NCBI GenBank assembly: GCA_018389105.1
Contig: JACATO010001024.1
Coordinates: 124,001 to 188,000 of the forward strand
Length of the DNA stretch: 64,000 nucleotides
Direction: 5' to 3'
Origin: Nautilus pompilius
Taxonomy: Eukaryota > Mollusca > Cephalopoda > Nautilida > Nautilidae
Numbering within the stretch: the first letter of the stretch is position 1; every line of letters starts with the position of its first letter. The translations under genes and the position numbers were made by a program. A model generated the notes under the pieces. That model made no database searches and was not told where the DNA came from. It worked only from the letters and a program-made list of their open reading frames with translations. Positions 4,481-64,000 of this stretch are shown here, in pieces.

Positions 4481-4539
4481 AACACGATTTACTGACATTT
4501 CGACCGGGAAATGCGAGTCTTACTGGTGTTCATACAGAA

Positions 4540-4627
4540 ATCAAACTTTCTGACCCGGAACTTACTTGTGTCGCCGACGGACGGAAGTGAGCATGACACG
4601 AATAAGTTCCGGGTCAGTCAGTTTGAT
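4540..4627. repeat. Foldback hairpin with about 33-bp arms
   Basis: The left arm (4540-4572) and right arm (4595-4627) are inverted copies centred on the shared 12-mer TGACCCGGAACTTA, with a few mismatches. The 22-base spacer includes GCCGACGGACGG. It is GC-richer than its surroundings, which suggests an inserted element such as a palindromic MITE end. Confidence 0.7.
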
Positions 4628-5710
4628 TTTACTTGAGTAAAGCAAACGATGCATCTTTCGGGAGCAGAAAAGCGTAAAAAGCAAGAAATGGGAGGGGAAA
4701 TCATGCAAGCTGCAAAGGGCAGCCCTATAAATTGCATTATACTACACAACAGTTTGCGTGTATGTTGTCTTTTTTTTTTTTACATATATAATTTTGTGAG
4801 CTAAAGGAGATAGATCTACAATTAGATGACAAAAATTTGAATACCCTCCTACACAGGAGTAACACGTTTTTTTTAGAAATGAGATAACAGTCAATATGTG
4901 GTGTTTTGTTGATATTTGAAAGGCACTTTTATTCAGTAGTCAGGAAAGGTGATTATCCAGCTCCGACATAGGATTTGAAACAGGCTTTAGGATATCCTGA
5001 TTGTGTTCATTTGAATTGTTTCTGTCATGTTAGGTCAGTCGTTTACTTCAGGGTAACGCATGAAAATACATAGGTACCCTGTGTAATTCATTGTTTCTGA
5101 TCAACACCATGCATAATAAATTAGAGCGGAAAGTTATATCATTTGAAAAATGATGTAGCTTGAGTTATGCAAGCTAATACGGTTCATACAACGGTTATTT
5201 GTTTTTATTCATAAGAAGGTAAAGATTCCGAAAATATATGTTTGTCTAGGGTCCGGTGGTAGGCTAATCCGGCCCAGAAAATGATTAGAAAATGGAAGTG
5301 TTACTAACAAACTGAAAGTAAACAAAGCTGTTTATTTTAACAATTTGAGAGCCATAGTTACGTTATTATTTCGTAGAATTTAGTCTCTTATTAAGTCTTT
5401 GCTTGGAGAACCCTTTCCTAACTTTCGAGGTTAGTAGACATTTCGCAGCGAGGGCGAAGGAAACGTTGTTCTCACATGAACGTTTGGCGTCGTACTCACA
5501 TCTGGGATTGAATTTCTGAATATATTCTGTTTGAAATGATGAATGGCACAAGATATTTAAAGGTGACTCTACAAACCCCTTGAAGCTACGTTACCCAAAG
5601 TCAACGAGACCTATATATAATTAAATACCTTCAGCCAGTTATCTGCTTGTTATTTTTTATTCTCGCTTCAGGTCCCGCAGCAGCGTCACGAGACCTCGCA
5701 AACTGCTACT

Positions 5711-6637: not shown

Positions 6638-8918
6638 CATTATACTACAACTGCTACGTTTCATAATAACTCAGCACTATCCAGAAGACCGGAAGAAACC
6701 AGCTTTTCTCTGGTAACAGCGAGCTGCGCCGTAATTCCAGAGGCTATGACCTCTCTGTTCCGCCAGTTTGATAACAACAATCAGTTCTGCCGTCTTTTCT
6801 ATCTTGGATATTCCAAGAATTCTCGCTACTTTTTAAAAAATAAATATATATAAACAACGTCAAAACTTTAAAGAATTATTTACTTACCTTTGGCTTCTTC
6901 TCAGTGATGACGGCTTGCAGCAGACGCAGTCTCAACCGTGACTTCCGAGATGTGAGACGCCAGTGCTGCATTTATGCTCACAACAGACCCGTTTGTTACC
7001 TGATTGGTCAATTTTTTTCATCAAAACAGCTGAAGTCAATAAATTCTCCGAAGGTGTCGCTCTCAGATTTGCCAAACGCGACTATTTTGACGAGAGTAAT
7101 TTTAGAAGTTTCAAAATACCGAATACTTCATTTTTTTGTTTGTTTTCACTCTTGTGATATTTTCTAAATATGATATTTAACCAATAGTTTCAAAATAATA
7201 TCTATTGTTGACGTTTTCCACTGAATTTACATTTGCTTTTGCTTCCAAAGGTTTGGCTTGTGGCGAATTTTCCATTTTAAAAATCGCCTGCTTCTTAATC
7301 CTATTAATTAGTCCCACAGTAAACATCACGTTTATTCCGGCGACAGACATCTTGTTCCTTTGGCAGTTTGAAACTAAAAGAATTCCGCCGTGTAGAGGTC
7401 GTTTAACTTTTTTAAAGAAATTCATTGGCGCTGCTTCTTTACGGTAGTTTTGCCAAAGTCCCCCTCCATCGTTTGCTGTTTATGCGTTTACCTTCTTTAT
7501 GGCAAATCGTCGTCGAGAGTAAAGTCCATCTCTAACAGTCTACTGTTCGTCACAGAAATACGGTTACAGGCCCCCAGGATAAAAACTAGGAGCGCCGCAG
7601 TGTGTCGCTGGTGGACTGCATCTATAGAAATGTATTTCTATATCACGGAGGTGTATTTTCACATGTGCTGAGATGGCTATTTCTTTATTAGGCAATCCAC
7701 GACAGTGATCTTCACGTTATCTCCATCTCTATATCGGCCATTAAGGATGAAGCAGTCATTAACACAGACGTGATATTATAAGTCTGCGTGTACATAGAGT
7801 GAAGAACTGAAAATCAAACTTTAAAAAATCCTACTGCTAATTAAAGATTTAAAAAAATAAATTATAAATCATCTTTGTTATATCGATCTATTTTCGGAAA
7901 CTTGGTTGACGAGTGAAGGTTTGCTCACAGTGTTATTATCTCACTTTGATCTGGTACTGCTTGAATAATTATTATGCAAACTCTCTATTAATAACCGCCA
8001 GTAAATGTGCATAGATGGGATAATCTATCTATTACAGCCTAGAAATAAAAAGAAATTTGAATTAAATTTCGTCTTCCCTTTATCTTTAATGGCTGTCATA
8101 TGCCCTAGAATACCATCTTTGCATGCACAATGCTAAATAAACCGTGTCGACACGGTATTTTGATTATTTATGTCACTTCTAATGGATATACAATTTACAT
8201 TCGTCTCTCTCGCTTGCTCTCTTAGCTTTAGGAATCTTTTCCATAATGCATTTAAACCTGTTCTTAAGGATCTTTGATACATTTGTAAACTTTTTTAACA
8301 TGTTATATATAAATATATATCTCAAAAACACAAAAAAATCATTCAAATGTTTCACTGCTTGTATTTTTCTATTGCCATTAGATACACGCACAGGTGCTCG
8401 ACATTGTGCTTGCTAGTACGACAAGTTTTGCCAGTATTCTGCCCTAGGGGTTTCAGTCAGTTCATCTTTCCTTTATTATACTCGAAGAATAAAGCTAAAC
8501 CATGCACGAGTAGTAGATTCTCCAGCCTCCATAACCAATACAGAATGAAAATTTTAAAATATCCAAGTCTCTACCGAAATCGTGTAACCGAAACGTTATT
8601 AATAGGTGCGGATTCTCTGTATTATAAGCGATATAAATGGTACGCTTAAATTCCACAGATAAGTGGTCAGTAGGCTTTCAGTTTGCTTAGTTTTTGGCCT
8701 TACGTCATCCATTCTGCCTCATTAGGTCATCCAGGACGTGCCCCACAGTAAAATATCATGGCTGTGACGCCAATGATTACCATAACGGTGTCTTTGTTGG
8801 TGTCAGACCATTATATGACTGTTCCTCTTCCAATGGCTGACAGACGTTAGTAATCCACGTAACCTCCTGACAGCCATGAGAGCGATATGTACACTATCGC
8901 AGTCAAGGGTAATGTATT

Positions 8919-9069: not shown

Positions 9070-11490
9070 TACAACATTTTAGTAGAAGAAACTACAAAGA
9101 AAGTGTATAAATATTAATAAATAAACACTCTTTATTTTGCAGTTTATGTTCTTAGTAATAACAGTAACGCATTATCAATAAGTGGAATATCAAAAAACGT
9201 AATTATAGTATTACAAAATATTGTTTTGTAATTGAAATCCATTTGCTTACTCGTATTTTGATTTATCCAAGTTCCCACAATAAATTTCAATTATTAATAA
9301 TTCACACTAATATTTTAACTTATGAAGCAATTTTCAAAGCAATATAAGATCTAACGATAAAAGTGATTACGTAATTACTTTTCTATGCATTAAATGAAGT
9401 TGCACTGCTACATATTACAACGGATATAATACGTTTTTGCTATTCAATTATTAATATTAATCCTAATTAAATTATTATCATCATTAGATTTATTTTTTCA
9501 GAAAAATGCAAGTATTGTTTTCAGTAACTAAATTCATGTACAACTCTCCTATAGCTTTAAGATAATACCAAACAACTAATGAAACATCAAAAACCATAAA
9601 GAATGTATAAGCAAAGTCATATAAAAGCAATAGATACCATATAACACAGAAAGTTATATTTATAATGAGAAAGGCTCTGTTAAGAGGGGTAATAAACAAA
9701 CGAGTAAACGAGTCACAGATTACCCGTATTAACTTGTGTGTGACATCTTTTCTGCTATAGATATTTTATGCTTGTGTAACTGCTTTCACACTTTTGACAG
9801 AAACGATCAAATTTACAGCTGTAATGTGTTTCCATTATTTTGGATGAACCAATAACATTATTCATCTTCGCTGGATGGAATTGGCCACGAGTTCTTAACC
9901 ATCGCGAAATATTAAATCTTATTTGCGGCAAACACAAGAGCCCTTTTAAAAAAAAATATTCTTTGCAGTGTAAGAGAGATTTTTTATATTTTTTAAAAAG
10001 TTACAAATAATAGAAAAAATCCATCCATTAGCGATAGATTTTATTTGAATTTAGTTCATTTCTTTTTCATTTTTAAAAACGTTTTCTTTGCAATCGTATT
10101 TTTAAAGCAAATGAATTGCATTATAAATTCTAAATAAATATTTGATTACGGACAGAATCGAGATAATTAAATTCAAACAAACAGTTAGTTTTCTAAATTT
10201 TAGCGAATAAAAATAAGAAATAATTTATTCTATATTAATAAATTATTTAAACGAGGTTGTTTAGTTAAAGATTTTGTGAATTAATTGCTTTAATGTGTTT
10301 TATACTATTATAAATACTAATAAAATCGCAAACTCAGCGGTTATTTTTTTTTTTTTGTTTGCTTGCCCTTTTCCTTTAATGACTGCATTAAAGACACAAA
10401 CGCTATCTTGAAACGGAATATAGATGACGTTTACTCTCCTACTGAATAGCTTACAATACCCACACAAAGGTGGTAGGCAGCAGTTTTATTCGTCGATGGG
10501 ATTCATTAAGAAGAAAAAAACAAAAAACAGGCTAGAATGCATTATTGACCGCTAGGGAACAAAGATTTCATCGTGTTATTTTATCTAACGAGTATCTCAA
10601 AAACAAAAACAAAAAAAAATTTTTAATATGAATACCTGAATAAATATTTTCAGGAATTTTTTGTATTTTTCCAGGTTAAAATTACTAACTAATGTTACAT
10701 TTGAATTTTCGGATAATTCATTTTCAATTTATTTTGTCTTTTCACAGTTTTGCCTCAGTGTTTTACGAGCGATCTTGTTGTAATTGCATATGATACATAT
10801 ATATTTTTATGGTCGCGCCATCCTTCGGAGCGAAAGCTCGTTATCAAACAAAATTCTTTGAATAATATAAGAAACAAAATCCATTCTTAAGTGTTAGTTT
10901 AAAAAAAAAACCCATTAAATAAGAAAGATATCGTAGCAGGTATAACATTGCCACTGAATATGCAGTAGTATCCTGAGAAAAAAGAAAGAAAATATAAAGG
11001 TTTCTGAGGGAACGAAATACACTTTTAAAAAAAAACAAAAGCAAACTACAATTATTTCTGAGAAGGATTGTTTTTATAGAAGACTGAGTATGTTGGAATA
11101 ACTGGATTTGTTTTCTTGAGAATAGTCGTGTTGAGAAGTTGTACATGTTTAGAAACCAGCCGATTTGGATCATTAATGTCGATTTTTTATGAAACCTTAA
11201 GATTTTATATTTTTTTCCTATTTGAACACAAAGTGAGGATTTCTTCTTATCTCTTGGTCTACTTTTATTTGTTTGGCTTCTTGGCTACTCCATGTTTTAC
11301 CATTCCATTTTTCATCACACCATCTTTGTCTGCTTCTTTAATATACCATTTAACACCTCCTCTTTTGGGGGATCTATTGCCGACCATGACTTCTTTCTTA
11401 TGTTGCCTATGCCTTTCTTCTCTCGCTACTACCATTTCCTTTTTATTCCATTTTCATCTGTAAGCCCCTCACACACTCACTCTGTAATGA
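9070..11490. other. No gene seen
   Basis: Strongly AT-rich between the MITE and the TC/ATC array. Poly-T and poly-A runs only. Confidence 0.6.
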
Positions 11491-11498
11491 CCTCACCT

Positions 11499-11668
11499 TT
11501 CTCTCTCTCCCTCATCATCATCATCATCATCTCTCTCCCTCTCTCATCATTCATCTCTCTCATCATCATCATCATCATCATCTCTCTCATCATCATATCT
11601 CTCTCTCTCTCTCTCTCATCATCATATCTCGCTCTCTCTCTCTCTCCCTCATCATGATCATCATCATC

Positions 11669-11705
<37 letters not shown>

Positions 11706-11807
11706 CATATCTCTCTCTCTCTCTCTCTCCCCTCCCTCATCATCATCATCATCATCATTCTCTCTCTCCCTCTCTCATCATTCATCTCTCTCATCATCAT
11801 CATATTC

Positions 11808-11888
<81 letters not shown>

Positions 11889-11988
11889 CCCTCCCTCATC
11901 ATCATCATCTCTCTCATCATCATCTCTCTCTCCCTCTCTCATCATCATCTCTTCATCATCATCATCATCTCGCTCTCTCTCTCTCTCA
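11499..11988. repeat. Compound TC/ATC microsatellite, about 490 bp
   Basis: Alternating blocks of (CT)n and (ATC)n, with similar composite units such as CCCTCATCATCATC recurring several times. The open frames across it encode only Ser/Leu/His/Ile repeats and are not genes. Confidence 0.95.
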
Positions 11989-11999
11989 CCTATTTTCTG

Positions 12000-14900
12000 T
12001 TAATATCTTCACGTCTCTTTCAAATATGCATTGGTCAAAACTTTAATTTAAACCTGTTATTTAATTACTTTTATCGACATCCAGAGACCGTTTTTGCATG
12101 GTACTTACTGGACATTAAATGTAGAAGAGAGTCATTTTCATACAAATGCCATATAAAGATGTCCTTTACTCTAATGCATCCGTTAACGAACAGATAAAAG
12201 ACTCTTCGTCCTGTGATGCTACTAAGAAAGCTACAAAAATTATTCGCTCTTACTGCCAGTGTCTGTTACCCTGTGTATGCCAAAACTCCGCCGTCCCTAG
12301 ATTCAATCAATAAAATGGTGTTGGAACGTAATAGGACCCAGCTATGTCGTTATATACCTCGATCACCTCACTTATTTACTTTCTGCATCTGAAAACCGCT
12401 CTACGTCGCTTTTTTTACTCTCTGCAGTATTCTTAAGAACAAGGCTCGATGCCTTTCCATCTCATTTAATTAAAAATACTCTACATATCCACAAAACCGT
12501 TGCCTCACCAAAGACGCGTTGCATAAGATGGAGAGAAAAGAAAAAGGAGAGAAAATTACTGGAACCCAATCTGACGTTTAGCATTTATGCATTCACCTTC
12601 AGCGATGTCTTCACAAAACATAATAACGCATTTCATCCAACTTTTAATTCATATCTGGTACTTAAATGGTTCAATTACATTCACGGCAGTAATTCGCAAT
12701 AAGACGTTTGTTAGCGGATTTGTCAGTATACAAAATTGGAATTTTGCACTAAACAGTACTAAAGTACTTTTTTTTTTTTTAGAAAATACCTTTTTCACAA
12801 CGCAACGCGCTATCATTTAATTCTTTAATAAGGTATCGTGTTGTTGTTTATCGCAAAGATTCTGCAGAATGTTTCTAGAATCGTCCCGTCTCTAGATCAA
12901 TAGCCAGCAGCTGATGAGTGCCAGGAAGCACCCAGGGATCTTGGGTGACCTTTGACTTGCTTGCGTACGTTTATTCTCTCCCCCTTTTTTTTGTCATGGC
13001 TGTATTACTATTTCTGCGATCCATTCCACTAACCCCGGTTCTCTGCATAATATCTGTAAGCTAAGATTGGAATTTTAGATTCACGTCTGCCGGTACAAAT
13101 AACGCTGTCGGGAGGCAATATTAAAGCAAAAGGGAAAACGAATGGAGGGGGAAGAACTCCCCCCGGAGAAACAACAATGGATATAAGTAATTTTGCCGGA
13201 AAGATATCTTATTGATAGTTTTAAACTTTTATCACACGTTTTTAAAAGAAATTACGTTCATTTAAATAAGATATGAATGGTACACCGGGAGACAAATTCT
13301 ATCGGGTTTTGTGTCATAAAATGTATTCATTGCTCTAACAAAGGACGGTGACGGTGGCCCAGAAAAGATGCTTATGTAAAAATGAACGTATCCCTTTAAA
13401 TATTGATGTTTACGTCTTGTCGCAAAAATTCGATTCGCAATAAACAAAAATTGAAGGCCACAACAGTGGTACTGGTGATGATTCCGTGGCAATTGTTGCC
13501 AGACACAGCAACTCATTCCCTTTCGCAGATTTTCTTCTTTTTTTTCACTTCCAGGAACTGGCGTACTGCAAAGTTCCCGTTTAGTGAAATTTACTGTTAG
13601 ACTGCCCTGTAGTAGGCGCATCTTCTCGAGAGATTACTGCATCGAGGAAGATGCTTAGTATGACGGCGTTCATAACTGTCTTCAGTTGGCTTTGTTGTTG
13701 GAGACACTTTTACGAGGTGGCCCACAACGGACACTCAGCCTGTTGTCAACAAACATAAAGTTAAGGCATGACCAGCTGCCACTGTAGTTATACGTGCAGA
13801 GATGCACATTTCCATAGCCAATAATAAAACCACGTGTGAGAATAAAACAATCGCATCAAGAAGTTTTTGCAAATTCTAGACAGTCATTCAATACGGCGTT
13901 TTTCGAGATGAGTTTACAAATATAAAAGAGAGAAGGCGATAAATTTGCGCAGTAAATTTTGTAGAATCATTGAAGGAACTAAAGTGCGAGATTGTTCAAT
14001 TCTGTTTCCACACCTTTTTTACTATTATCGCAAAGTTCTGAATGTGCATATGCGTTACATTCAGTAAGTAGTACACATGCATGATCAAGGTTATGAAACT
14101 TTTCAAGTATCTTAGCATTAACTTAATTTGCATTTGCTAACTAAAATACGCAACGAACATAAAGAATGTGATCCGCGTGTAATATCGTGGCGTGCATGCA
14201 TTTTAATGAAGCACAGAAATGGCGGATTTGGGCTATAAAAGAAGCAGACTGTTTACAACACACTTTTATCTATCATCTGCGGTTCAGATACATGGAAACC
14301 AATAAATACTCTTGGCAATCGTCCTCCTTTTTAAGGGCCAAAAAGAAGACCGACACACGCATTGACATTAGTACCATCAGGGAATCTGCAACTTAGATTT
14401 TTAAGCACACGCTTAGCCACATGTTATTCATTATCAACGGCTCTTTTGTGAATAAGAAACAGATAAATTTACCGAAATTCTTTTACTGGTATATCGAATG
14501 AAGAGACCATCTTCACGCGGATTTTACGCGGAGTTACATATGACAGACATCCAGTGTAAATATCTTTCCCTGACAGTTTTCTGGTTCTTTACGTCTGCCA
14601 TAGGAGAAAATGGAGAAACGACATTTTGTGTTTCGCAATTCCTTTATCATGTTTTTCTTGTGATTTCCCTGCTGACCTCATTGTCAGTAGAAAGTGGACA
14701 TAATAATGGCAGAAAAACTATCTTGACTTAGTTTTTCACAACCAAAATAAATAAAATGAAATATCATATGGAGACCTACTCTTCGTTTAGTTCATGTCTA
14801 CCGCATGTTTTTCACTTCTTTCCAATGTGCTGCAAAATTCTTGTAGTAAATTTGATCTCTGCTGTGAGGATAGTCATTACAACCACGTGGTCATAGCTAT

Positions 14901-32412: not shown

Positions 32413-35400
32413 CAATTCCGTCGTGTGTGTTTATCAAGCTATCCGTCATTATTGCTTATGGTTTTATCCAGATACACTACAAGTTATATGTGAGCAGCTG
32501 AAGCCTTTTGCTTTCTTTGCTGCCGAGTTTGTGTGTGTGTGCTGTGATGTGACTGCTGTGGCCAATGGGCCTTTATGAATCGTATTTACTTATTTACTTT
32601 TGGAGGTGCTATGAGTATCTATCTGCAAGATGTCATACGAATTTAACTATAGTGCACATATTTGGCAATAAAGTGACGCTGAGTCAGTAATCATTGCTAG
32701 GATTAATAGAAATCCACTAATAAGTGAAAATGATATTTAAAAAACGCGACGTATTTAAATCTTCTTATATCTAAAATAATAGCAAAGAGTTAAGAAATGA
32801 ATTGACTTTTTAAATCAACAAAAATTGTTTTTTTTTTGGAAGTAAAATTCTCACTTCCACACCACATTATTTGGAGAATTCGAGGAATCGTTATAACCTG
32901 GGGCGGAGTGGCTTTGAGAAGCCATTATTTTATTTCAAAAATATCGTGAGGGAGAAGCCACATTAGTCTGTTTAATCAGACTTTCCTTAACGACATTTTC
33001 CTGTGTTTGAGGGGGAAATGTCCATGAAGAGAAAATGAGATTTAAAAACCTTTTTAATTTCTGCAAATTAAAGAAATATTTTGCCAAGATATTCAATGTT
33101 CTCTTAAAATTGCTAAGCTTTGGGGATAAAGCAGAAAAAAAACAATATAATATTAGAATATGCTAAAGCCTTTTAAAAACCGAAAATATAGTGTATACTC
33201 ATTTGAATTTTACTATTTTTCTTTACCTCGTAAAATCAGTCAAATATCATATTTACTTACTAAGGATCACTATTTACATAAAGCTTGCTGGCATTTAAAT
33301 AATTATGGGAACTGAATAATTTTCTAAGCCACATAATTTCTTTATTCTTTATTGTTGTTGTTGGTGTTGTTGATGGTCACGAGATGATGCCTCTAAAAAT
33401 ATGTATTGAAAATATCTCATTTTACGCAGACACCGGTTCGTTTTAGCAAACAAAATATATACGTTAACAGTCCTCCGTTTTTTTATAGCACAGCTGGCTG
33501 AAATAACTAACCAAAAGACGAGGCAATAGCTTTGTGCTTCTGGATATTATTTTCCTAAAAAATCTGGCAGTTTCCTGCTTATTTAAATACCCGGCAGAAT
33601 ATTTGTATTCGAGATATTTCTTCTAATGTATTTACTTTATGCACATCTACACAAGATTGTAAGGAGTAATGCATCTCAATTATTTACAAGAAAGAATCTT
33701 AGATTTTATTCATATAAAATCTCGTTTTTCCTTTTAAAATAACATCAGTATCCTTACTCCACAAGTTACATCACAGTAGTCATTGCAAATGGAATCTACA
33801 TAAATGGAATTTTAAGATGAGGTCCTGACAAAGGAGGAGGAACTCTGAGAGAGTTGGTGAAAGACTGCAGTGTGTGCATGCTGACGTCCCATTAGTTAGA
33901 TCAAAATGTCTGCGGGATAATTTAGTTTTTATCGTAGTTTACCAACTGGAAACGTGAACCATCAAGTGTCGCCAGAAATGAGGATTCTGTGGAAAGGGGG
34001 GGATTGTTCTGGTATTTCCATGAGCTGTGATATTTTGTGTAAATGAACTCGCGGCCTAAGGTTTGTTTTTTTTTTTCTTTCTCTCTGTACTTCGACCACC
34101 CTAACCCGCACATAAAAGCGTAGGGTGGAATTGCTCAAGTTTCTACTAACTACATATTGTGTATAATGAATTGGTAAATTCTATCCCTACATGGTACCTG
34201 GTGACACATGATACATGCATCATTTGTCCTGAGTTTGATTATAACCCCAGGTGCTTCCATACTTCAGCTAAGAATGGAATACACGGGTTAGAGGTCCTTT
34301 GGAATTGTCTCTAAAGTAAAAATGTAAAGAAATTTTTAAACATTTTCATTAAGCACATTTGTAATATTTAAGGTAACTGTTACCTCGGAAATGCTAAACA
34401 ACAGCGGATGAACATTTTTCTGAAGTGATTGCTTCTAAAGAAAACCGAGAAAGGAAGGAATATAAACCAGAAAATCGGCTTACTGCTTTATAGCTTTCGA
34501 GTTAATAGAAAGTCACATTATCGCTGAAATAAACGACCTTCGGAGAATTATTAATAAGATGTGCATGAATTCGTGACGCAATTATTCCCATTATCGTAAT
34601 TAATGATTGCCGATTGACGCTGGTCGAATCAGCGGTTGTCAGTTTGAAGAATGGCGATGATTTGCGATATTCTTGGCGTACACGTTTAGAGTTAATAAAT
34701 CACTGGGTGTGCACAGGTGTCCGCGTAATTCTGGAGCAGAAATGGCTCGGAGAGGAAGGGCCTACATAATGGACAGGTAGCGGGCTAGAAAGAGGCTTGC
34801 CGAAAACTGCTATGCAAACCTAATGAGCGACCAAAAAACGAGCCAATATCGAAGAATGAGATCGATAGCGGCACATGTATAATTTCCAGAAACGAGCGGA
34901 TATGAAAGATTATGATTGATAGGTGTGGTTCAAGCGAAGAAAAGTAAACTTTAAGTTTTGTCAAGTAAGGAGGGATTGAATCCGTTGCGGGCACATGGTT
35001 TAAAAGATGGCAAAGGGAACATTTTAAATGCCGTTTTTGTTAAAGGGTGTACAAGTTCTATATAAAATCCATTTCTCTTAATCAAGCGGCAGAAGAATAG
35101 CAGGGAATGCCTTTTTATGCACTATTTATCTTTCAGATACAGCGAGGTAACAATATTAAAGATTACCGTATATCGATGAATTGCCATCTTATTTATAGTT
35201 ATACAGGAAATAATAAACCACTTCAGAATATTCCTCTAGAAAGTACAAAGCTACACCGTAGCACACGACGCTCACTTAAGATTACCTACTAGAAGAACGG
35301 AGTCACACGTTACATTTTCATCCTCAAACTCTGTAGCTTACCACACTTAGCCTTTTTCTTTGCTTTCTTTATCATTAATCGTTAAAATCTGAAATAATTT

Positions 35401-43240: not shown

Positions 43241-43330
<90 letters not shown>

Positions 43331-43346
43331 TAATAATAATAATAAT
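43241..43346. repeat. (TAA)n microsatellite
   Basis: About 35 TAA units with one interruption (TAAATAA), beginning about 230 bases after the recognisable end of the second Tigger relic. Confidence 0.97.
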
Positions 43347-48560: not shown

Positions 48561-49532
48561 TACTTGAACGTTCATGAGAATGCATTTTCAATGAGAATTT
48601 ATATATAAGCGCTTTGTGGTATGTAATGATCAGTTTAGCACATGAATTAACAAACCAGAGAAAGAAAGTTATATCTGAATAGATACATTAAACAACCATA
48701 AAAAGAAAACTGAAAAGAGAATTATGTATTTATTTTTTTACAGTGATTTCCTTAAAAATTACAAAAGCAACTTAGTGATTTATGAAGTACAAAGATTAAA
48801 AGTAATGATCGGAACCAAAGGCTTACTTTTTTCTTTGTTTCTAAATCAAAAGATTTCAAGCAAATGATAAAGGAACTTTATTAAAAGTTTCTTTCCATTA
48901 TGAATACTACTTATCCTCTCAACAGCTTAGAACAGCTCGCACTTGCAGGATGATTCATGCGATGGACACACGCCTGCTGTGTTAGGTTAGTCTGGCTTTC
49001 GTGGTGCCAACATTTAGATAAGTAAACCAAAAAAAAAAAAAAACGGTTTTCATTACCCTTGGTTTTATCGCGGAACTGGCATTTCGTTAGGACGCAAGCG
49101 ACACCTAAACTGGGTCACAATGACGCCCCATATCCTGAAGCTGCCCAGGGTTTGCTGAATTATTCCGCCCTCTTTTCGTTCTGTGCGCTGAAATATAAAG
49201 ATTGAATGAATAAATCGACGAAATAAATAACCACAGACGAAAAACACAATTAAGGTGATGAGGACGAGGGGTTTTAGTTTAAAGGATATACCAAAAAAAA
49301 AAAAAAAAATTATAGGAATACTTCCACAGAAGCCATACTAGTATTATGATGGAATATTTGCTCACAATACAAAAGAGACGACGAACCCCTGACGCACAGC
49401 ATGCGAATGAACAACGTTTGATGCGTCTGGTGACGTCATAATGACAACAGATAGTCACACCTGCGCAAGCTAAATTCACATGACCTCAGCAGCATTTGTG
49501 CCGATTTCTTCCACCCTCCGCTACAGCGTAGC

Positions 49533-49666
49533 ACCAACATCTCACAGTTTCCACTAGACACGGCACCAGCATCTCACAGTTTCCACTAGACACGGCACCA
49601 GCATCTCACAGTTTCCACTAGACACGGCACCAGCATCTCACAGTTTCCACTAGACACGGCACCAGC
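49533..49666. repeat. 32-bp minisatellite, about 4.2 copies
   Basis: The unit starts at 49535, 49567, 49599, 49631 and 49663, an exact 32-base period. Copies are nearly identical; the first has CAAC for CAGC. Each unit contains ATCTCACAGTTTCCACTAG. High identity indicates recent expansion. Confidence 0.92.
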
Positions 49667-49806
49667 AATTTGCACAAGACATTGCAGATGCAATCTTCCC
49701 GACATAAAATCACTAACATAAAATAGACACATAATTACGAAATTTTTTTTTAGGGATAGTGCTATTGCGTTAGTATTTATTACATACAGAACTGTTACAA
49801 TTCTTT

Positions 49807-52051: not shown

Positions 52052-52606
52052 CTACTACCACTACTAGTAGTGAGATGTTTCACGAAATCAAACAGTTACT
52101 GCTAGACAGATGCAGACAATAAAAAAGAAAACAAAGCAGAAAGGAAATCAGATTATTAGAATTAAATTTTTGTATATATCATTGTCATTCTTCAAGTTAA
52201 AAATAAAATAAAGATATTTCTTTTCGCCTTTATTCAGGTTTCACTGTATTTTATTGTTTTAGTTAGTTTTCTTTATTTTTATTGTTTAATGAATATGTTT
52301 GGTAATGTTTCCACTCCAAATCTGGCACCTCGGTTCTGTTCACTGATATGCCACTCAGTTGATGGCTTGTCTGAATTATCATCTTACGATTCGTTTTACT
52401 ATCCACAAGTCACATTGGATGAAAACAGCCCTAATCTGTCACGTTCGAAAATGACCAAATGCACTGATGCTCCAACTGTGTCTTTGTTTAAACCTGCGAG
52501 GAAGGTCAAAGTGAGTGGAGACATTTGGAGCAAGACCGAGCCATTTACTTTGCAAGATTAAATTTTCTCTTTAGTATTGTCATTATTTTCTTGTCAATAA
52601 CCGCAA

Positions 52607-52620
52607 TACACACACACACA

Positions 52621-52681
<61 letters not shown>

Positions 52682-52893
52682 CTCCATCTCCATCTCTCTA
52701 TCTCAATCTCTCTCTCTCCATCTCCATCTCCATCTCTCCATCTCAATCTCTCTCTCCATCTCCATCTCCATCTCTCCATCTCAATCTCTCTCTCTCTCCA
52801 TCTCCATCTCTCCATCTCAATCTCTCTCTCTCTCCTCCATCTCCATCTCTCTCTCCATCTCCATCTTTCTCTCTCTCTCTCTCTCTCTCTCTT
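52607..52893. repeat. CA then TC/CCATCT compound array
   Basis: (CA)8 passes into (CT)n and then repeated CCATCTCCATCT and CCATCTCAATCT words forming higher-order units of about 50 bases, ending in (CT)n. No gene lies inside. Confidence 0.93.
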
Positions 52894-54159
52894 AGAAATT
52901 CAACACGTTTCCACTAAGAATGTTTTAATTTGTTTAATTTTTCTCAAAAACTGGATTGTATTAAAAATAACGAAGGATATGAAGTTAGTATTTCTTGTTG
53001 AACATTACAAATGTACTCACACTTTTAACATAGAAGAAAATAATCATCTTGACTGCAGGGATGACGCATGGAGATCTTTACAGTAAAAGGGAATTCAATT
53101 TTCTTTCAGTACAGGTTACTGGTATCTTTGAACAATAGACCACTTTTTGCAAAAATCTCATTTTAAAATTTTTTTACCTATCACAACTGTCCAAAAGCAT
53201 TTGAAACATACCATATACTTCAATAATCTGGGGCAGGCCTATTTCCAGCAACGGACTTCAACTGGCTGGTGACGACGACGATATACTTCAATATCAGACC
53301 AAGGCAAAACGATACTAAACGGTAAAGTGCAGTACCTTAAATCTACAATGAAGAGTACTGGAAAATTTCATACCATGTTCCTTTAACTGTAAAAATAATA
53401 TCTGTTTGTTATCTCGGTGTGAATCTTTTGTTGTCGTTAGAGTACTAGATTTATAAGCTTTTACTGCATCTGATCCGCCACTGAGACACCGTCCACACCT
53501 TGTGACCTAAAATGGGCTTAACATTTAAGCAATGAGCGCTTCTCCGAAAGAGTGCGCGAATGAAACAAGTTTGAGAGCGTCTGGAGCGAAACATCCGTTA
53601 TGTATCGAGAAGCAGAGGCAAAACCCGTGCATCTTTAAAATTCTACCGTCAATAGCGATATCGTCCGCGCATATGTGTAGAAATTGTTTACCTTCGTAGT
53701 CCGCAACACACCGGTCAGGGCGTAGTTTTCGCTAATTGCGCTGTTCGCGGAAAAGGCGTTTATCCATTCGTGTCTTTGTTGTTGTTTTCCATTTCGTTCA
53801 CAATGTCTATCCATTTCTACTTTATTGCTTCGTTATGCGATCTTTCTTCATCTCGCCTCGGCTTAGTTCGGCTTGTCGAGCAAGCGCCGTCTTACAGGAA
53901 ACCCGTTCAAGGCGCTTGCTGGCTGACCACGACTCTCCACCGTTTAGCTCGGATGTAGAACGGAAGAGGACGTTTCCAGGAGCGCTAGCCGACCTTTTTT
54001 TCTTCCTCTTCCCAGTCCCAGCCCTCGCTGTCCATATTTCTTGCATCGCTATGCATTATCAGATACTGGTTGGAGCATCTGTTAGTTGATACCCTACGCG
54101 CCCAGAGGTCAATGGCGTAGACTGTTTTCATTTTTGTGCGTGTTTGGAAACGTGGGTAA

Positions 54160-54440
54160 GTTCTTTCGGTGGTGAGGTGGGGGACTGGGTAAACCGGAGC
54201 CTCTCCGGGTTTGGGGGTTTGAAGCATTAGCCCCTGGAGGATCCCGTCAGGCGGGTCTTATGATCCCCCGACCAGAGGCCAGGGACCACGCTGGTGATCG
54301 CTCCCCCAGCTAGGGAGCTCGCCCCCCTCCGGGAATTATGTCCATCGAAGGGGAGCAATGCCGACTGAACGGAAACCTTAACCCCTTTGGGACAAGGTAG
54401 GAAACCTGGTCAGGGACCAGGGCGCTTTGGTCTCAGTATT
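54160..54440. other. Very GC-rich segment with runs of C and G
   Basis: About 280 bases contain many CCCC and GGGG runs (GGTGGGGGACTGGG, GCTCCCCCAGC, CTCGCCCCCCTCCGGG) and several short self-complementary words such as GGTCAGGGACC. Composition differs sharply from the flanks. No credible reading frame was found on either strand. It could be untranslated gene sequence of the downstream receptor or the GC-rich UTR of a retrotransposon. Confidence 0.4.
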
Positions 54441-54653
54441 TCTCTCTTGGCTGGAAAGAGAAAATGCTGCAATTTAAATTATTTTCTTATGTTCACCGTA
54501 AAAATACACGTGCGCGCGCGGACGTACCTTCTTCACAATGCTTCATGATGCCTAATGAAGTGAGCGTTCAGGCGTCGCATACTTTTGACTGCTCCGATAA
54601 TCACCGTGACACTTTGATTTATTGTAGATGAAGAGAATGCAGCAAATATAAAA

Positions 54654-54671
54654 ACACACACACACGCACAC
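54654..54671. repeat. Short (CA)n microsatellite
   Basis: CA units interrupted once by CG. Confidence 0.85.
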
Positions 54672-55234
54672 ATTACAGAATTTCATTTCCTCTGAATTTC
54701 TTATTTTAATTTCTTTATGCTGTCGCTGAAAAGGCGAACTGACTGGACGTGGTTGTGTCAGTATCTACTGAGGCTTCTCGCTGGAGTCGCTTGTAATATC
54801 CAGGATAACTAATCCAGGGAGGTGTCATTATCAGTAGAAACAACGTGTGTGGGTGATATTCATCGGGAAGACCGAAGGTAAAGGGCGGGGGGGGGAGGAA
54901 AGGAACCGACGGACACCAGCGAGGCTGGTAAAGCGGTTCTGGTAACCCTGTCCGGATCGATAAACCCGACGGAACCTTGCCCGTTCGTCGACATACAGCC
55001 GTGAAGTTGACTTCGTTCGGCGGATTACCTTCCTCGAATATATACAGATTCACTAATACTGCATAAATTACCGTTGCCCCGGTTACTCGCAGTACGGGGA
55101 GAGGAGGAGGTTTACGTTGCGTAATGTTCGCCGTTGATATGGTGACCGCAGCACCAAAGTGAAAACGAGGAGCGACCGGAGAGGGGGTGGGGCCGGACCG
55201 GAGCTGGGCGATAGCGCGACGGAGATCGACGCGA

Positions 55235-55393
55235 ATGAACGTTCTTCTTCTGCTCGTCTCCCGGTTAGACCCGTCATCGATTTCTTCGTGTCAACGGAAG
55301 GCTCGATCGTATCAAGGAATTTGGGATATTCTCCGTGTTCTTTCGTTCGTTTTATTATTTAGTGCTTCCGTCGCGCACGCTTCTAGAAGAAGG
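55235..55393 (+). other. Possible alternative first exon or upstream ORF with signal-like peptide
   Basis: An ATG-started frame runs from 55235 and ends in the hydrophobic stretch VLSFVLLFSASVAHA followed by SRR. It then reads into AG|GTAAATAA, where the in-frame stop is formed by the donor-like bases. A hydrophobic segment next to a splice-donor-like site, in a CpG-rich region 300 bp upstream of the receptor start, would suit an alternative leader exon. It may equally be a chance frame inside the 5' UTR. No homologue is recognised. Confidence 0.22.
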
Positions 55394-55697
55394 TAAATAA
55401 CAACGAGGCTAAGAAGAAAATATTACTACTAATAATAATAATATTGAAAGGCCTAAATCTGCCCGAACACGAACGGCCCTCCTCGCCATAGATCGGCCTC
55501 CCGTTGAACTCGATCGCCGCTGAAGGATCCGCAGAACAGGAAAACAGCTGAATTCAAAGACAGCCGAATCTCCGTTAACCCACCACGCGCTTCTCCGACC
55601 GGAGAGACAAAATGCGCATGACCGTCGGACTGTGAATACGGTTCTCACCACATTGGCACAGCGTCAGCGATCCCAGCCGCCGACCGAGTAATATGCC

Positions 55698-55968
55698 ATG
55701 GTCTTAGTTCAGGACTGCTGTTTCGTTTGGCTGGTAATGATAGCAACGGTGAGGTAAGTACCGCGGGAAGTCGTTCAGACGTTTGACCCGATGTAATGAT
55801 GGTAAGTCTCTTCGATCTCCTCCCTTTCCTCCCCTCTTTTCCCTACCTGAATCCTCTTCGTATTTCCTTGTAGCTGTTATGGCACGCCAGGCCGGTTTCG
55901 AAACACGACAAACACCATTGAAAGCTTGCTGAAGGGATACGACATTCGTCTACGACCACAGTTCGAAG
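55698..55968 (+). CDS. GABRB: GABA-A receptor beta-type Cys-loop subunit, 5' end (exons 55698-55753 and 55874-55968)
   Basis: Subunit of a pentameric GABA-gated chloride channel in the plasma membrane. Exon 1 (56 bp) starts at an ATG in good context (gccATGg) with an in-frame TAA 9 bases upstream. It encodes a hydrophobic leader, MVLVQDCCFVWLVMIATV, ending after two bases of a Ser codon at GAG|GTAAGT. The intron is 120 bp with a strong polypyrimidine tract and ends TTGTAG. Exon 2 (95 bp) completes the Ser codon and reads through residues 20-50, ending on the first base of a Gly codon at GAAG|GTAAGT. Residues 34-47, TIESLLKGYDIRLRP with the preceding Thr, match the N-terminal helix and first strand of beta subunits, whose family motif is LLKGYDIRLRPDFGG. 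The NTT sequon at residues 29-31 sits where beta subunits are N-glycosylated. Alpha, glycine-receptor and RDL subunits differ at KGYDIRLRP. Later exons (Cys loop, M1-M4) were not found before 64000. The family call is strong and the beta assignment is likely. Whether the gene is intact cannot be judged. Confidence 0.87.
55754..55873 (+). other. Intron 1 of the GABA-A receptor beta-type gene
   Basis: The donor GTAAGTACC follows GAG at 55753. The acceptor TTCCTTGTAG ends at 55873 after about 60 bases of almost pure pyrimidine. A competing donor-like GTAAGT at 55803 cannot be used by this reading frame, because the frame hits TAA immediately after the first donor. The junction is phase 2. Confidence 0.8.
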
Positions 55969-55999
55969 GTAAGTCGGTCTACACGTCCTTCGAACAAAC

Positions 56000-58900
56000 C
56001 GCCGGTGCCAGTTCTTCAGCGGAACTTGCTGAACATGTAACTCTGATACCCAAATCATCTTCTCTTTAACGTTTTCTTGAGAAATAAATCTTCTAAAATA
56101 GACGTGCAAACCGCTATAACGATCACAGGGAATCGTTAATCTTTCACAATGGACCTTATCATCTTATCTCGTCCATCCATATTTCCCAGAGCTGACAAAA
56201 TAAATCGCACACGCATAAAAAAATAACACTATAGGACTATTTAGATTTGGAAGCCACTAGAATTATACATCTCAACTTGTGTTTGCTGGAATATATGCTA
56301 AAAGTACATTGGTTTATATTTCTCTATCCTTTATCAAACAAGCGGAAAGGATGGGTCAGGTTGTAGGAAATGTTTTTATTTGTAGTCGTGCATCCTCCAG
56401 CAAGACAAGAGCGGTATAGGTGCCACTAAATACACACCTGCTTAACCCAATGAATGCATTAATAACGACAACATTACAAAATATAATCCTCTTTTTCTAA
56501 AAAAAAATTACTACATTTTTTTTGTTTAATTTAATTTAAAGTTTTGCTTTTGGGGAATTTTTAGAATAAATATTCCATTTTTATTTTTTGCTGCCTAAAT
56601 ATTCCTAAAATGATACAAAGAATTTTTTTCAGATTTTAATCGTTACCTTTTTTTTTGGTCTGGAAGACATCTAATTTAAGCAAAAGAGTGGATTACCTGC
56701 TGCTTAAAACACGAACAGGCTGATCGAATTGTTCGTATTTTGCATTTTTACCTGTGTCAACAGCCAACGCAATGCTCAGGTAAAATATTAACGCGCCTTC
56801 CATTGAGATATTAATTGGATCGACCTCTGGCGTCTGCTTGGTCAATACAGGTAAGAAAAGCCCTGTGTGCAGCGTACTCACTAGTCTTTGAATCGCATTT
56901 ACTGACACACCTGTGAAGGGTTTCTCTCAGCGCTTCCCACCCGTCACTGAGCCACGTCTGTGACCGTTTCTATCGGTGTCTCGAAGAACCACTTAATTTT
57001 TACATTCGGGTGCTTAGAAGACGGCAACCGACAAGTTTCGTTTGTGGCCCCAGTTTTAATTTATTACACAAGAAGTAAAATAAAACTTCTGCGTTGATCA
57101 CAGTGGACGCTATGGGAAAAGGGAGTGGAAAAACCGAAAGATGGAGCAAGAGAATAATAAGCACAACGCTGCTTCTAAAATATTTGAGCAACTGTAAAGG
57201 TAATGAACCTGTGCTCGGTGTTTATCACGTGTCTGAAGTAGTCTGCGAACAAGCTGAATGAAAACCAGGAAAACATAAGTAAAAATACCAGAAAGCCCAT
57301 ATACATATATTTACAGTTACTTAGCTACAAATGTGATATTTCACAACGCACATGTCTGAGTCTTGAAGTGCACAAAAACCGAATTTTAACCTGACCTTCA
57401 TTTCTGCCATAAAAACAACAAAGGTAACGTACATGACAAGAAATATGAAGGAAGCAAATGTCAGGTAAATCCCACGTAGCGCTGGTTGTTGTTCAATGCG
57501 ATCATGTAAAAGTAAGTAAAGATAATTTCCGTTTATCGCACACCTGCCCTGAACACAGCCAAATTTTTCACAATGCAACAGAAGCTTTCAAAACGCAACC
57601 AAGCGTCTCGGTCGTAAAGGTACTCAAAAGATCGCGGTATAACTGGGTGACGCAAGTTTTTGGCTTGCTTGTAATTAACGTTTCGCTATGCTTGCTGTGG
57701 ATACATTAACTCTGAGTATAAGCTGATGTTGACATTTTTTTATTGATCCGACCACTATCTCCCAATTTAAGGAACCGTTCGAAATTTTGTTTGTTTTATC
57801 CAGAAAATGTGTATCGCATCTCCACTGCAAAAGAAAAAAGAGAAAAAAAATCAAACCGAAAATCAGAGGATAATCCACAGTTCTGTGTACTTTAAATCCA
57901 TCATCTGTTTATGTAAAGTCAGTTTGGATGTCCTGCTCTCTTTCAATGTATTTCTAATGCTCTGATTTCTGAGTTGAAGAGTGGTGTCCTTATAGTTACT
58001 TCATACCTCCAGCTGTTGACTTTATCAGGAAAATTTACATTAACATTTTGCCCACTGGCACCGTATCTAAGAAACTCTTAGCCGAGAATCTGCTGGTTAG
58101 ATCGATCGCTACTCCACTCGAATTAAAAAAAGAAACGCGGATATCGGTATTCGCATATCGACTATCGCTCGGCAACGATTCGAAAAGCCCCTTCTGCGTG
58201 TTTGTTTTTTTTTTGTCTCTCTCGCTAGAAGCGCCATACTGACTCTTTACGTAATTCTGAGCTGAGGGGTGTGTGGGGGGGGTGACAGAAAATTTACCTT
58301 TTAAGCTTTCATCGACTTCATCAACTCGTCGTTGATTCCAGATCATTTCCATCGGTTGTCCTCCGTCCTCTCACAGAAGCAGGCGAAAGGTCGGAGATAT
58401 TGCTTAAATTCTGAATCGCACCTATACTGCAGAATACATATTGCGGCCAAACATAACCATAGCAATATATATACATTTGTTTTTTTTTTAAATTAAGGCT
58501 AAAAAATGAATCTGAAACTGGATGTTTTACAAACACGGGAGGCAAAAATTAAATAGAAATTAAAATGAAGGATTCTTTTCAAAAAATTGAAACAGCGCTG
58601 TAGTGCAACTGATGTATGGGACAAGACGGATCAGGTCGGCTGATGAAAGAGCATTTCAGCGATATTTCCCAGAGTTTGTGTACCAGTCATAGTACTTATC
58701 TTGTGGAGATGAAACTAGCGTCAATAAAGTCACACTTCCAGGTACGTTTTCGACTAAAGAATATAATTTTAAATAAAAGAAATACATAATTGATAAATCG
58801 GAAAACTAAACGAGTGCTCAAGCATTGCGTTATTGGAGGTATAACTGCGCTTAGAATTAGAATTTTGGGGTCACCAACGTAATGATGATTTTCTTGAATA

Positions 58901-59075
58901 CCTATCTAATCAAACTGAATCGCTTTTTTTTTTCTTTTCTTTAAGAAAAAGTTAAAAGATAAACAAATCTTTATTTATCTGATATCACGGACTCTGGACG
59001 GACATTTAAAACGTTTTTCATAACCACGTCTGTGACTGCATCAGGATAAACCTGAGAAATGTTTGGAACATTTTA
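56000..59075 (+). other. Probable start of a long intron of the receptor gene; no exon found
   Basis: After the donor at 55969 I looked for the expected next short exon, beginning with two bases that complete a Gly codon and encoding a VGxxxxIASxxxISEVN-like stretch. None was seen here or up to 64000. Confidence 0.5.
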
Positions 59076-59078
59076 GCC

Positions 59079-59079
<1 letters not shown>

Positions 59080-59174
<95 letters not shown>
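59080..59174. repeat. (TAA)n microsatellite
   Basis: About 31 perfect TAA units. A poly-tyrosine frame on the minus strand is an artefact of the repeat. Confidence 0.97.
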
Positions 59175-59176
<2 letters not shown>

Positions 59177-59258
59177 ACAATCACATTAAATAAATAGATT
59201 AATAATCTGTGAATAATTATCATGTTGTTTTTTCTAACTCTTCAAGGAGAAATTTTAA

Positions 59259-59373
59259 ATACTACTTTTTAAAGCAATAGTGCTATAAAAAACGTTAACG
59301 AGAAAAATAATTAATTAAACGAATTTTTAAAAATAACGTTTTTTATTGAACTATTGCTTTAAAAAAGTAGTAT
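59259..59373. repeat. Foldback hairpin with about 39-bp arms next to a TAA array
   Basis: ATACTACTTTTTAAAGCAATAG...ATAAAAAACGTTA (59259-59297) is inverted at 59334-59373 with only a few differences and a 36-base AT-rich spacer. The length and near-perfect arms suggest a short MITE or foldback element. It begins 85 bases after the (TAA)n array. Confidence 0.75.
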
Positions 59374-60032
59374 AATCGAGTTAACTGATTTGATCAGGCG
59401 AAGCTCGCGAGAAGTGGGAAGTGGCTCAATAATTTCATAAAAGCCACCTGAATTCTCTTGGCCAAAACTACTTCTTGCCACCTTTCTATATTTAGTTCAC
59501 ACCACATCCCACACACAAAAGGTGTTCCGGTTTTCCCTGTCGTAGTGATCCTAGTAAAGTTATTGTACCCAGAAACACTCTGGAGAATCCTTAAGGATTA
59601 TCTGGTTTTTTATATCTTTAGATTAGATTCCATAGCTGTTGGTGAAAACTTAGCTACGTTGGTTAATCGTATCGACCAGCGGGGTATATCTGGATTAATG
59701 TCTGCGGCAAAGGAGATCAATTGGAAAAGTATCGTACCGAACAAAAGTAGAACAAATACATCTTTAAATGTTCTTCACCAAGTTACATAAGGAAACAAAA
59801 GACCACAGCTACGGGCCACTAAAAGTGTTAGTAAATAGTATTTAAAGATCGGTAAGTGATCTTTTTAACTCACCCAAAAAAACTTTTTTTTTTAAATATT
59901 TTTTGTCGATGGAAGAGAAAATGAAGGAATTACTTTATCTATCATTGATATTTGATTTACCGGACTTTTAAAAACACTAATACTTTATTTAATACATTCT
60001 TTTTTCTACAAAAATACTATCGAAGTTCGAAT

Positions 60033-60060
60033 AAAACGAGGCTGAAAACAGCCTCGTTTT
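60033..60060. repeat. Perfect 12-bp stem with AAAA loop
   Basis: AAAACGAGGCTG, loop AAAA, CAGCCTCGTTTT. The stem is perfect, GC-rich at its tip and followed by T residues. It is too short to be a pre-miRNA. It could be a terminator-like or transposon-end structure. Confidence 0.6.
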
Positions 60061-60786
60061 CACAGCATCCGGTCTGACTTCATGACGTCGTCTCTTACAT
60101 TCGTTTTTTTGCACTGTTTAGAAAGACAGACACTCGCCAAATCTTTAACCACTGACCGTATAAGCAAATGACGAGTTTCGAAGTGTTATTAACTTTAACC
60201 TTTGATTAGTCTAATAAAGGAAATAGTTGTGAATTGACATAATTGCATATAAAATTATAGGACCGTTCTTTTCAGGAAAAAAATTCGAAATAAGGCAATT
60301 TTTTGAGGAAGGCATTTATCTCACACAAGAGTCTTTCTTTTTTTAAAAAATAAAAAAAAGACAGCCCTCGACTAAACATTTTCCTTCTTCAGATTTCAGA
60401 TACAAACAAAAGACTCTACTTGTCACCTACTTCCTTTAATGTTTAAATTCCTGTTCAAAGTTTGTTGTATTTTGAGGTAAAGAGAAGATTCCAATCAGAG
60501 AATGGACGCTAAGTGAATAATTATTTATATATTATAACACTATTTGGACTTAAAATTTATTATTTACAAATTATTATATATTTCATTTAATGTCGTATAA
60601 TTAGTTTGATTTTTCTTATTAGTATTATGTTTAAGCCATATATATTTACTTACGACACATAGTCATATTTTATAACGTCCATTGTCTTTCTTTAAGGAAA
60701 AGAAGGAATATACTGTTATAAGCAGACTATGCTTATCTTTTATTAATTTTTAAACAAGCATTGAAAATCCTATACACAGATTTCTA

Positions 60787-60960
60787 TTAGAGACACTTAG
60801 TTGGATCCGCACCAAAGAGTATCGATTGTAACGTCTCATCAGTCTTTGAGAAACTAAGGAAACTGGATCTAATCCAAATATAAGCCGGCAGGATAACCAG
60901 CAATTCGATTAAGAAAATATTGTTGCAACAGAATGCTAACTGCATTGAATAAACGTATCT
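60787..60960 (-). pseudogene. Possible LINE C-terminal fragment
   Basis: A minus-strand open frame ends with LVILPAYIWIRSSFLSF and then KTDETLQSILFGADPTKCL before a stop. This resembles the end of CR1/L2-like LINE ORF2, where a CPxY...R box is followed by a short spacer and an ILFG-type motif. The Cys and His residues expected before PAY are absent. Alternative: a chance frame. Confidence 0.3.
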
Positions 60961-61225
60961 GTGTATTTTGGCCTGATCCGTGTATCTGAGGGTCCAAAAG
61001 AGGAAAAAAGAAGAGAGGGACATTTGGTCTGATGATGAAGACAACCTAAGGTGTAGATCTTAGGACGTTTTCATTTCTTTGATTACCGCTGTGGGCGACC
61101 TCATTTAGAATTAAACAACTTTTATATTTGCTTTATTTGAGACCTGTATCACTGTTTTTTTCATAATCTTTACGGACTTCCCTGTACGTCAAAATGCACT
61201 GACAGTTTCGCTACGATCGTTAGAA

Positions 61226-61250
61226 TACACACACACACACATATATATAC
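61226..61250. repeat. (AC)n(AT)n microsatellite
   Basis: AC units change directly into AT units. Confidence 0.9.
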
Positions 61251-61549
61251 AACATAAAAATATTGTTGTTCTATCATATTTTCTGTAAACGCTATTTTTA
61301 CCAAATATATCGACCAGGGTTATTTTTCAGTGGTCAATATATTCGAGAGTTGCAAAATCTTTGAAAAACGTTACACGTTTCGTATTATATGCTTCAGATT
61401 CTTAATAAAAGTCTGGGTCTTTTATAGAAACGTTCAAACATGGTAGGAGATAAAAGGTAAAATAAATAAATGAATAAGCGACATTTCTTGACTATTTTGC
61501 TACATGACGATTATTTTAACATATCTACTATTCTACTACTGCTCCACCA

Positions 61550-62780
61550 CAGGGTCATTGATTCCTTAGTACTAGCTAAAGTCTTCACCCGAAGGTAAGT
61601 GTTGTTTTCACTAACAATGATTTCGGTTTTTAAGTTTCCAGAAAGTAGACAATTATTGGAATTTCCATAACTATCCCTCTATATTCCGACATTACGGAAA
61701 CTATTCCGTTCTTAAATTTAATTTCTGTTACAAATAGCTGAACCTCTCCACCCAGAAGCTAGCTATTGTTACTCTGTCTTTAGTTACTCGGAAATATCAA
61801 TTACGAATCACATGTCATGGAGGGTCAACTGCAGTTTATTTTCACTGAAGTAAAGAAACCGAAAAATGACTTTTGTGCAGCAATATCCTGACATTTACTT
61901 TCTTTTATATCTAATGTCAGATAAAAGCCGTGCAAGATGATGACCTCTTGGTTCTTTAAAACGAACTAGGTGAAGATGAAGCCAATCGCAACATTAAAAT
62001 GTGCAAAGTATTTAATAAATTAATGGTACCAGCTGAAAGACATTAACATTTTAATATGTAGGCAAAATAGCAACGAGGCAGATAGAAGGAGGCTTCGTGT
62101 CGAAGATTATACTGGCGTCTTTTGCTCGCCCATCCCACCCAAAGTAAGTTCCAGAAGTTGTTAAAAGTATTTTATTTCTTATTTCTTTCTTTATACGTTG
62201 CCTCTCAAGAATTTTACCTCAGACGTATTATTAGTTTCATTCTTTTTCTGTTCTTGAAAAAAAATTCTGAAATAAATTTTTTGAACGGTTCGCAGAAAAA
62301 TTCATACGCATTAATAAACACAATAAAAACTGTATATTTATCACATTTATTTATCAAAATCTTAATATTTATTTATTTATTGGTGCACATTCATTAACAA
62401 CGTGTTTTGCTTTGCAATTTTCTTTGGTTGTTGTCAGCCGCTAAATTGAAGGATTTTTCCTTTGTTATTAATTGTTATTAATGCAAACAGGACTTTAGTA
62501 TTTACCGCCATTTTGACACCTTCACCTTGAAGCTAATTGCTGTCACTAAAAAAAAAAATATTGCTTTGTTCTTTTCACATTTAGCTTCACTGCTATTGCG
62601 CCTTTTACCGGTTAACCCATTCCTCAGTACAAGCTAATTTCTTCACTCTTAAGCTATCTGTTAACATTCATACTAATCAGATGGTTCAGTTATTATAAGT
62701 ACTATTTTTGTCATTAATGGTTGACCCACTTCAGCTTGAAGCTAACTTTTGAAGCATTCGGTACAGACTAACCTAGTTGA
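61550..62780 (+). repeat. Degenerate dispersed repeat built on an AGCTAA...TTCAC core
   Basis: Segments at about 61553, 61742, 62512, 62614 and 62725 share ATTCCTTAGTAC, AAGCTAA, TTCTTCAC and TGTTAACA-like words in similar order. The best pair is 61560-61615 with 62620-62675. They look like old members of a loose tandem or dispersed family. Confidence 0.35.
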
Positions 62781-64000
62781 CTCAAGGTTAATTATTCTGG
62801 TTTTTTTAAAATAATAAAACTAGAGGTAAAATTGTTTTCAAGTTATTAATGTTTAGATAGTATATATTTGCATGATTTTACTATCTTTATTCTTTGATTT
62901 CATAAAGGTTTATTTTTTGTTTGGTGTGATTATTACTTTAGCACAGTCTATTTCAGTCAGAATACTTTAAACTGTAAGTGGTGGCTCTACTCCATGTTGA
63001 AGTTCACTGTTCTGCTGAAGCAAGAGCTGAAAGCTGTTCTGTTTTGAAAAGTTGGCTACTGTTTCCACAAACAACTTACAAAATTGGCAGCTATGTCTAC
63101 AATGCCCTTTAAAAAAAAACAAAAAAAGTGCTTTAAAAGGATTCCCGGTTAATATGTTATCTTGTACGACAACATTCCAAAGTCGATTATACTGGTTTGA
63201 AATCTGGCAGAAATATTCTTCGAAGGCGTTAGAATGTTGCTGAATTCCACTTCAAAACACATACATTTCTACATATTAATGTTTTTTTAGATACCAATTT
63301 TCGCTGTAACCTCAAATCAGTTCTCTCGAATTCATCTACATTTTCATTATGGTCGCATTCTTTCTGGGCGTGTACCTAAAGAAAAGTGCTTAGTGAACAG
63401 CACTGCAGGGAAATGGTCTGAATATAGTAACTAAATTTCGCTTTAGTAGAAAGCTTCCAGAGTCTAATGGCAGCGAGGCAGTCAGTAAACGACGATAACA
63501 TATTTGTTGTTCTAATTCTTTTCGTAAGGTTAATAATTATTGAAAACTCGGTCTTATAAAAACGTAACACCGATAATTTATCGGTTACAAAGATAGGGGG
63601 GTTTAATCAGTGGTTAAAGTATTGCAAAAAGAACCAAAAAAGGAAAACCGATTTTCATTAATGAATTAAATGGTATTCCTTCGAACCTAATTGATCAGAT
63701 AAATAAGTAAACCATTATATTTCATACGCTTTACTCGGACGAAATTTTAACGATATTGTATGCAAAGGCCTACGTATCGATTGCATTTGACAGTGAGTCT
63801 ACATACGGTATATGGATCATCGAAGAAACATTTACAATTAATCCGCTTACTGAAGACTTATTGACATAAAAAGAAACGTAAAGGTAATTTTAAAAAAAAT
63901 GAGTATAGTTTAAAGCAAGTGACAATACAAAAACTCGTGACTGTTCTCACTTCGACGTCAGCTTCCTTTTATCAGCTGTGATTTCGTTTTGATCTTTGTA

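Follow-up and report, generated by a model that had tools for sequence, protein, structure and literature searches.

GABA receptors are described in PMC11275251 as being among the chief targets of insecticides. According to the same paper, LCCH3 and GRD together make cation channels in several arthropods and lcch3 is located near 8916 or hocas in several arthropods, and PMC2064938 reports that the PAR motif before TM2 is absent from LCCH3. The other arthropod GABA subunits (RDL, GRD, 8916 and HoCas) share their superfamily with the peptide described here. In vertebrate GABA receptor genes, an exon for the signal peptide is presumably followed by an exon of about 92 nt, a layout parallel to the one found here; a literature search on where exons lie in such genes found nothing relevant. 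In the literature, the letters GYDIRLRP lead to a study on human GABA-A alpha4 variants with beta3.

Here, we analyzed 64,000 nucleotides of Nautilus pompilius DNA (the window, by which we mean this whole stretch). Judged from sequence comparison, the locus very probably holds, on the + strand, the 5' end of a gene that encodes an animal ionotropic GABA receptor subunit of beta type (putatively LCCH3-type in arthropod naming). The gene is of an ordinary, well-known kind. ORF lists overlook it because both exons are shorter than 100 bases, whereas its 5' end is now placed; for an insect genome, such a gene model would be of use in annotation.

Structure of the locus

The initial annotation had proposed two small exons that join in phase, and this proposal is borne out: the coordinates are right, and splice signals and phase, which can be read directly from the exon sequences, agree (Table 1). 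Spliced together, the exons yield a 51-residue peptide that is hydrophobic at its N-terminus and contains an NTT sequon followed by the segment LLKGYDIRLRP. The reading frame after joining is MVLVQDCCFVWLVMIATVSCYGTPGRFRNTTNTIESLLKGYDIRLRPQFE(G), the final G being provisional, as two of its bases were taken from past the exon-2 donor. Start context and upstream in-frame stop were also found as claimed, with the start codon at 55698 in GCCATGG and an in-frame TAA at 55689–55691, the third codon upstream of this ATG. Full-consensus donors follow exon 1 (GAG/GTAAGT after 55753) and exon 2 (AAG/GTAAGT after 55968), and the intron-1 acceptor before 55874 reads TTGTAG/C. The polypyrimidine tract is real, with 85% C+T across the 62 bases that end just before the TAG. 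Read without splicing, the frame meets a stop at the first full codon of intron 1, so splicing is required. Exon 2 is unable to start translation alone, since no ATG in frame occurs from the last in-frame stop up to its first codon.

The GC-rich stretch around the presumed 5' end perhaps comprises the promoter and 5' UTR. Its CpG observed/expected ratio is uneven (0.63–1.56); the whole window has 37% GC and a ratio of 1.01, values that many insects would also fit. A second donor-like sequence, GATG/GTAAGT, lies within intron 1 (55798–55807); in-frame stops would remain if it were paired with exon 1. At 55693–55707, a short upstream ORF in another frame (four codons, ATG CCA TGG TCT, followed by TAG) overlaps the proposed ATG, beginning five bases ahead of it. 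Such an upstream ORF could lower translation from the main ATG.

Table 1. Coordinates of the features at the locus (positions within the window)
Feature	Position	Strand	Description
Exon 1, coding part	55698..55753	+	ATG start and putative signal peptide: MVLVQDCCFVWLVMIATV, then two bases of a codon that exon 2 completes
Intron 1	55754..55873	+	120 nt, GT-AG, with in-frame stops and a long polypyrimidine tract
Exon 2	55874..55968	+	95 nt; start of the mature protein, NTT sequon and LLKGYDIRLRPQFE segment; its last base is the first of a split codon
Presumed intron 2, beginning	55969..64000	+	Runs past the window end; chance-level matches only in tblastn and exon-3 scan
GC-rich stretch around presumed 5' end	53501..56000		47–53% GC in 500-base steps vs 37% in the window

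Similarity to GABA-A receptor beta subunits

Similarity of the encoded peptide to GABA-A receptors was observed in phmmer searches of PDB sequences. The joined peptide finds a receptor rather than any other protein as its best match, namely GABA-A beta-3 (E 4.7e-5), followed by beta-1 (1.7e-4) and beta-2 (1.5e-3), whereas alpha subunits lie behind, from E 0.033 (alpha-1). Up to E 10, 36 distinct PDB sequences were matched, every one of them a GABA-A subunit or a construct containing such a subunit. When exon 2 is searched by itself, beta-3, -1 and -2 again rank first (E 4.6e-4 for beta-3 and 0.26 for the best alpha), and nicotinic and glycine receptors are absent up to E 10 in both searches. 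Among the 36 matches of exon 2, 32 are GABA-A subunits and the four weakest are unrelated (three of a tRNA nuclease, one acetyl-CoA carboxylase, E 0.74–1.9). With beta subunits as best matches and alpha subunits well behind, the beta-type identity put forward by the initial annotation is supported.

In vertebrate beta-3, -1 and -2, the matched stretch starts inside the signal peptide and reaches the initial residues of the ligand-binding domain. The N-terminal segment of beta-3 matched the window by tblastn with E 6e-8 at 55887–55970, vs E 0.69 at the second-best place. LLKGYDIRLRP, noted before as diagnostic, is indeed present as an eleven-residue run identical to beta-3 at the corresponding place of the protein. 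The sequon that had been claimed at the expected site exists as NTT, but it is positioned three residues downstream of the NMS sequon of beta-3 in an ungapped alignment; its register presumably agrees with that of arthropod LCCH3. The GYDIRLRP segment is presumably also common to LCCH3 and the window peptide, and the exon-2 peptide reaches a score of 76 with the beta-3 and LCCH3 reference segments, compared with 36 for an RDL segment. Beta-type is the right level for the subunit class; with 51 residues, the finer assignment to LCCH3 is putative.

The joined peptide gave no Pfam match to Neur_chan_LBD (PF02931). This miss is uninformative because the corresponding 42-residue fragment of beta-3 did not match either. 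TERT_thumb (E 0.21), the sole Pfam hit of the joined peptide, is a chance hit.

Search for the remainder of the gene

No convincing further receptor exon was found on either strand of the window by tblastn with beta-3, alpha-1, LCCH3-like and RDL-like segments. Downstream, the + strand rows are at chance level, with E 1.4 at 61235–61342 (containing a stop), 2.3 at 57551–57706, 3.0 at 63303–63359 and 3.9 at 57982–58065. For the long tblastn queries, the best row besides exon 2 was obtained with beta-3 at 33038–33289 (E 0.75, also with a stop). An ungapped scan of the window for exon 3 reached a best score of 25, vs 48–71 among the three reference segments themselves, and exons for the Cys-loop and the four transmembrane helices were not found within the 64-kb window. 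As no convincing further receptor exon was found in the window, intron 2 would exceed 8 kb. A neighboring upstream receptor gene was likewise not seen with the beta-3, alpha-1, LCCH3-like and RDL-like queries.

We infer that the locus is transcribed and contributes to a functional channel. In this gene model, exon 1 would encode a signal peptide that directs the chain into the endoplasmic reticulum, and exon 2 would encode the start of the extracellular ligand-binding domain with its glycosylation sequon and the conserved GYDIRLRP. What remains of this domain would be encoded outside the window, past the intron of more than 8 kb, together with the four membrane helices and the pore.

Alternative explanations

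A peptide as short as this one might come from an open stretch whose resemblance to the receptor is fortuitous, but the eleven identical residues occur at the matching position of the protein and the reversed joined peptide had no matches among PDB sequences up to E 10. Moreover, when all six frames were scanned without gaps (BLOSUM62) for three reference segments (beta-3, LCCH3 and RDL), the score was 76 at 55905 and at most 26 elsewhere, whereas the best scores in 100 dinucleotide-preserving shuffles of the window averaged 29 and did not exceed 48. The match of exon 2 greatly exceeds what chance would give, and we consider the probability of a fortuitous resemblance to be negligible. Exon 1 is likely, not proven, and more weakly supported than exon 2, as its own homology is slight. 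The lower best E-value of the joined peptide compared with exon 2 alone may be taken as a weak sign in favor of exon 1, as the gain comes from a loosely aligned hydrophobic stretch; this stretch fits a signal peptide, which is its putative function. Exon 2 could be real while the true signal-peptide exon is located further upstream, in which case 55698–55753 would be an ORF in the 5' region that happens to be in phase. Across 55.8 kb of upstream sequence, we counted 19 ATG-to-donor candidates in phase with exon 2 (GTAAG or GTGAG donors, coding length <200 nt), the proposed exon 1 included. Four of the 18 alternatives are almost as hydrophobic (means 2.32–2.55), and the proposed exon is without clear homology of its own. 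Still, it ranks first for hydrophobicity, if narrowly (11-mer mean 2.57 vs 2.55 for the next), is the sole candidate within 3 kb of exon 2 and combines a full-consensus GTAAGT donor with a GCCATGG start inside the GC-rich stretch, which makes a more distant signal-peptide exon unlikely.

The 8 kb that remain downstream without a further receptor exon would also agree with a pseudogene fragment, in which exons 1 and 2 of a damaged or incomplete beta-type receptor gene copy are left and the remainder is lost. Both exons are intact, however, both donors have the full GTAAGT consensus and the 5' region of the locus is GC-rich. In addition, neural receptor genes usually have long early introns. A pseudogene is therefore very improbable in our view. 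Another reading would assign the locus to a diverged beta-type GABA subunit that is specific to the lineage and exists as an additional paralogue beside LCCH3. The only hint in this direction is the QFEG of the window peptide, which replaces the DFGG of vertebrate beta-3 in an otherwise conserved segment, and such a paralogue appears highly doubtful. The 5' end of an ordinary beta-type subunit gene is the reading that we prefer.

Rest of the window

The initial annotation had described the window as otherwise non-coding. In agreement with this, none of the 17 ORFs scanned, out of 20 with at least 100 aa, had a Pfam hit at the family cut-off, although small exons are invisible to such a scan. 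The three ORFs outside the scan (11292–11657, 11654–12046 and 52525–52917) are partly or largely translations of simple repeats. Rfam gave no matches at the gathering score in the window, and no tRNA was detected in it by ARAGORN with bacterial settings. Relatives were not confirmed for any of 17 pattern matches in viral contigs or 123 in contigs of prokaryote genomes, as is expected of an animal gene.

Long arrays of simple repeats (TC, TCA, TAA, CT and AAT) are located at 11512–11987, 43243–43346, 52623–52892 and 59079–59175, and the low-complexity ORFs arise from those at 11512–11987 and 52623–52892. A minisatellite with a 32-bp unit occupies 49531–49667 (4.3 copies, 99% matches). Two short imperfect palindromes, at 4538–4629 (35-nt arms, 89% complementary) and 59266–59365 (43-nt arms, 84%), are possibly hairpin-type repeats.
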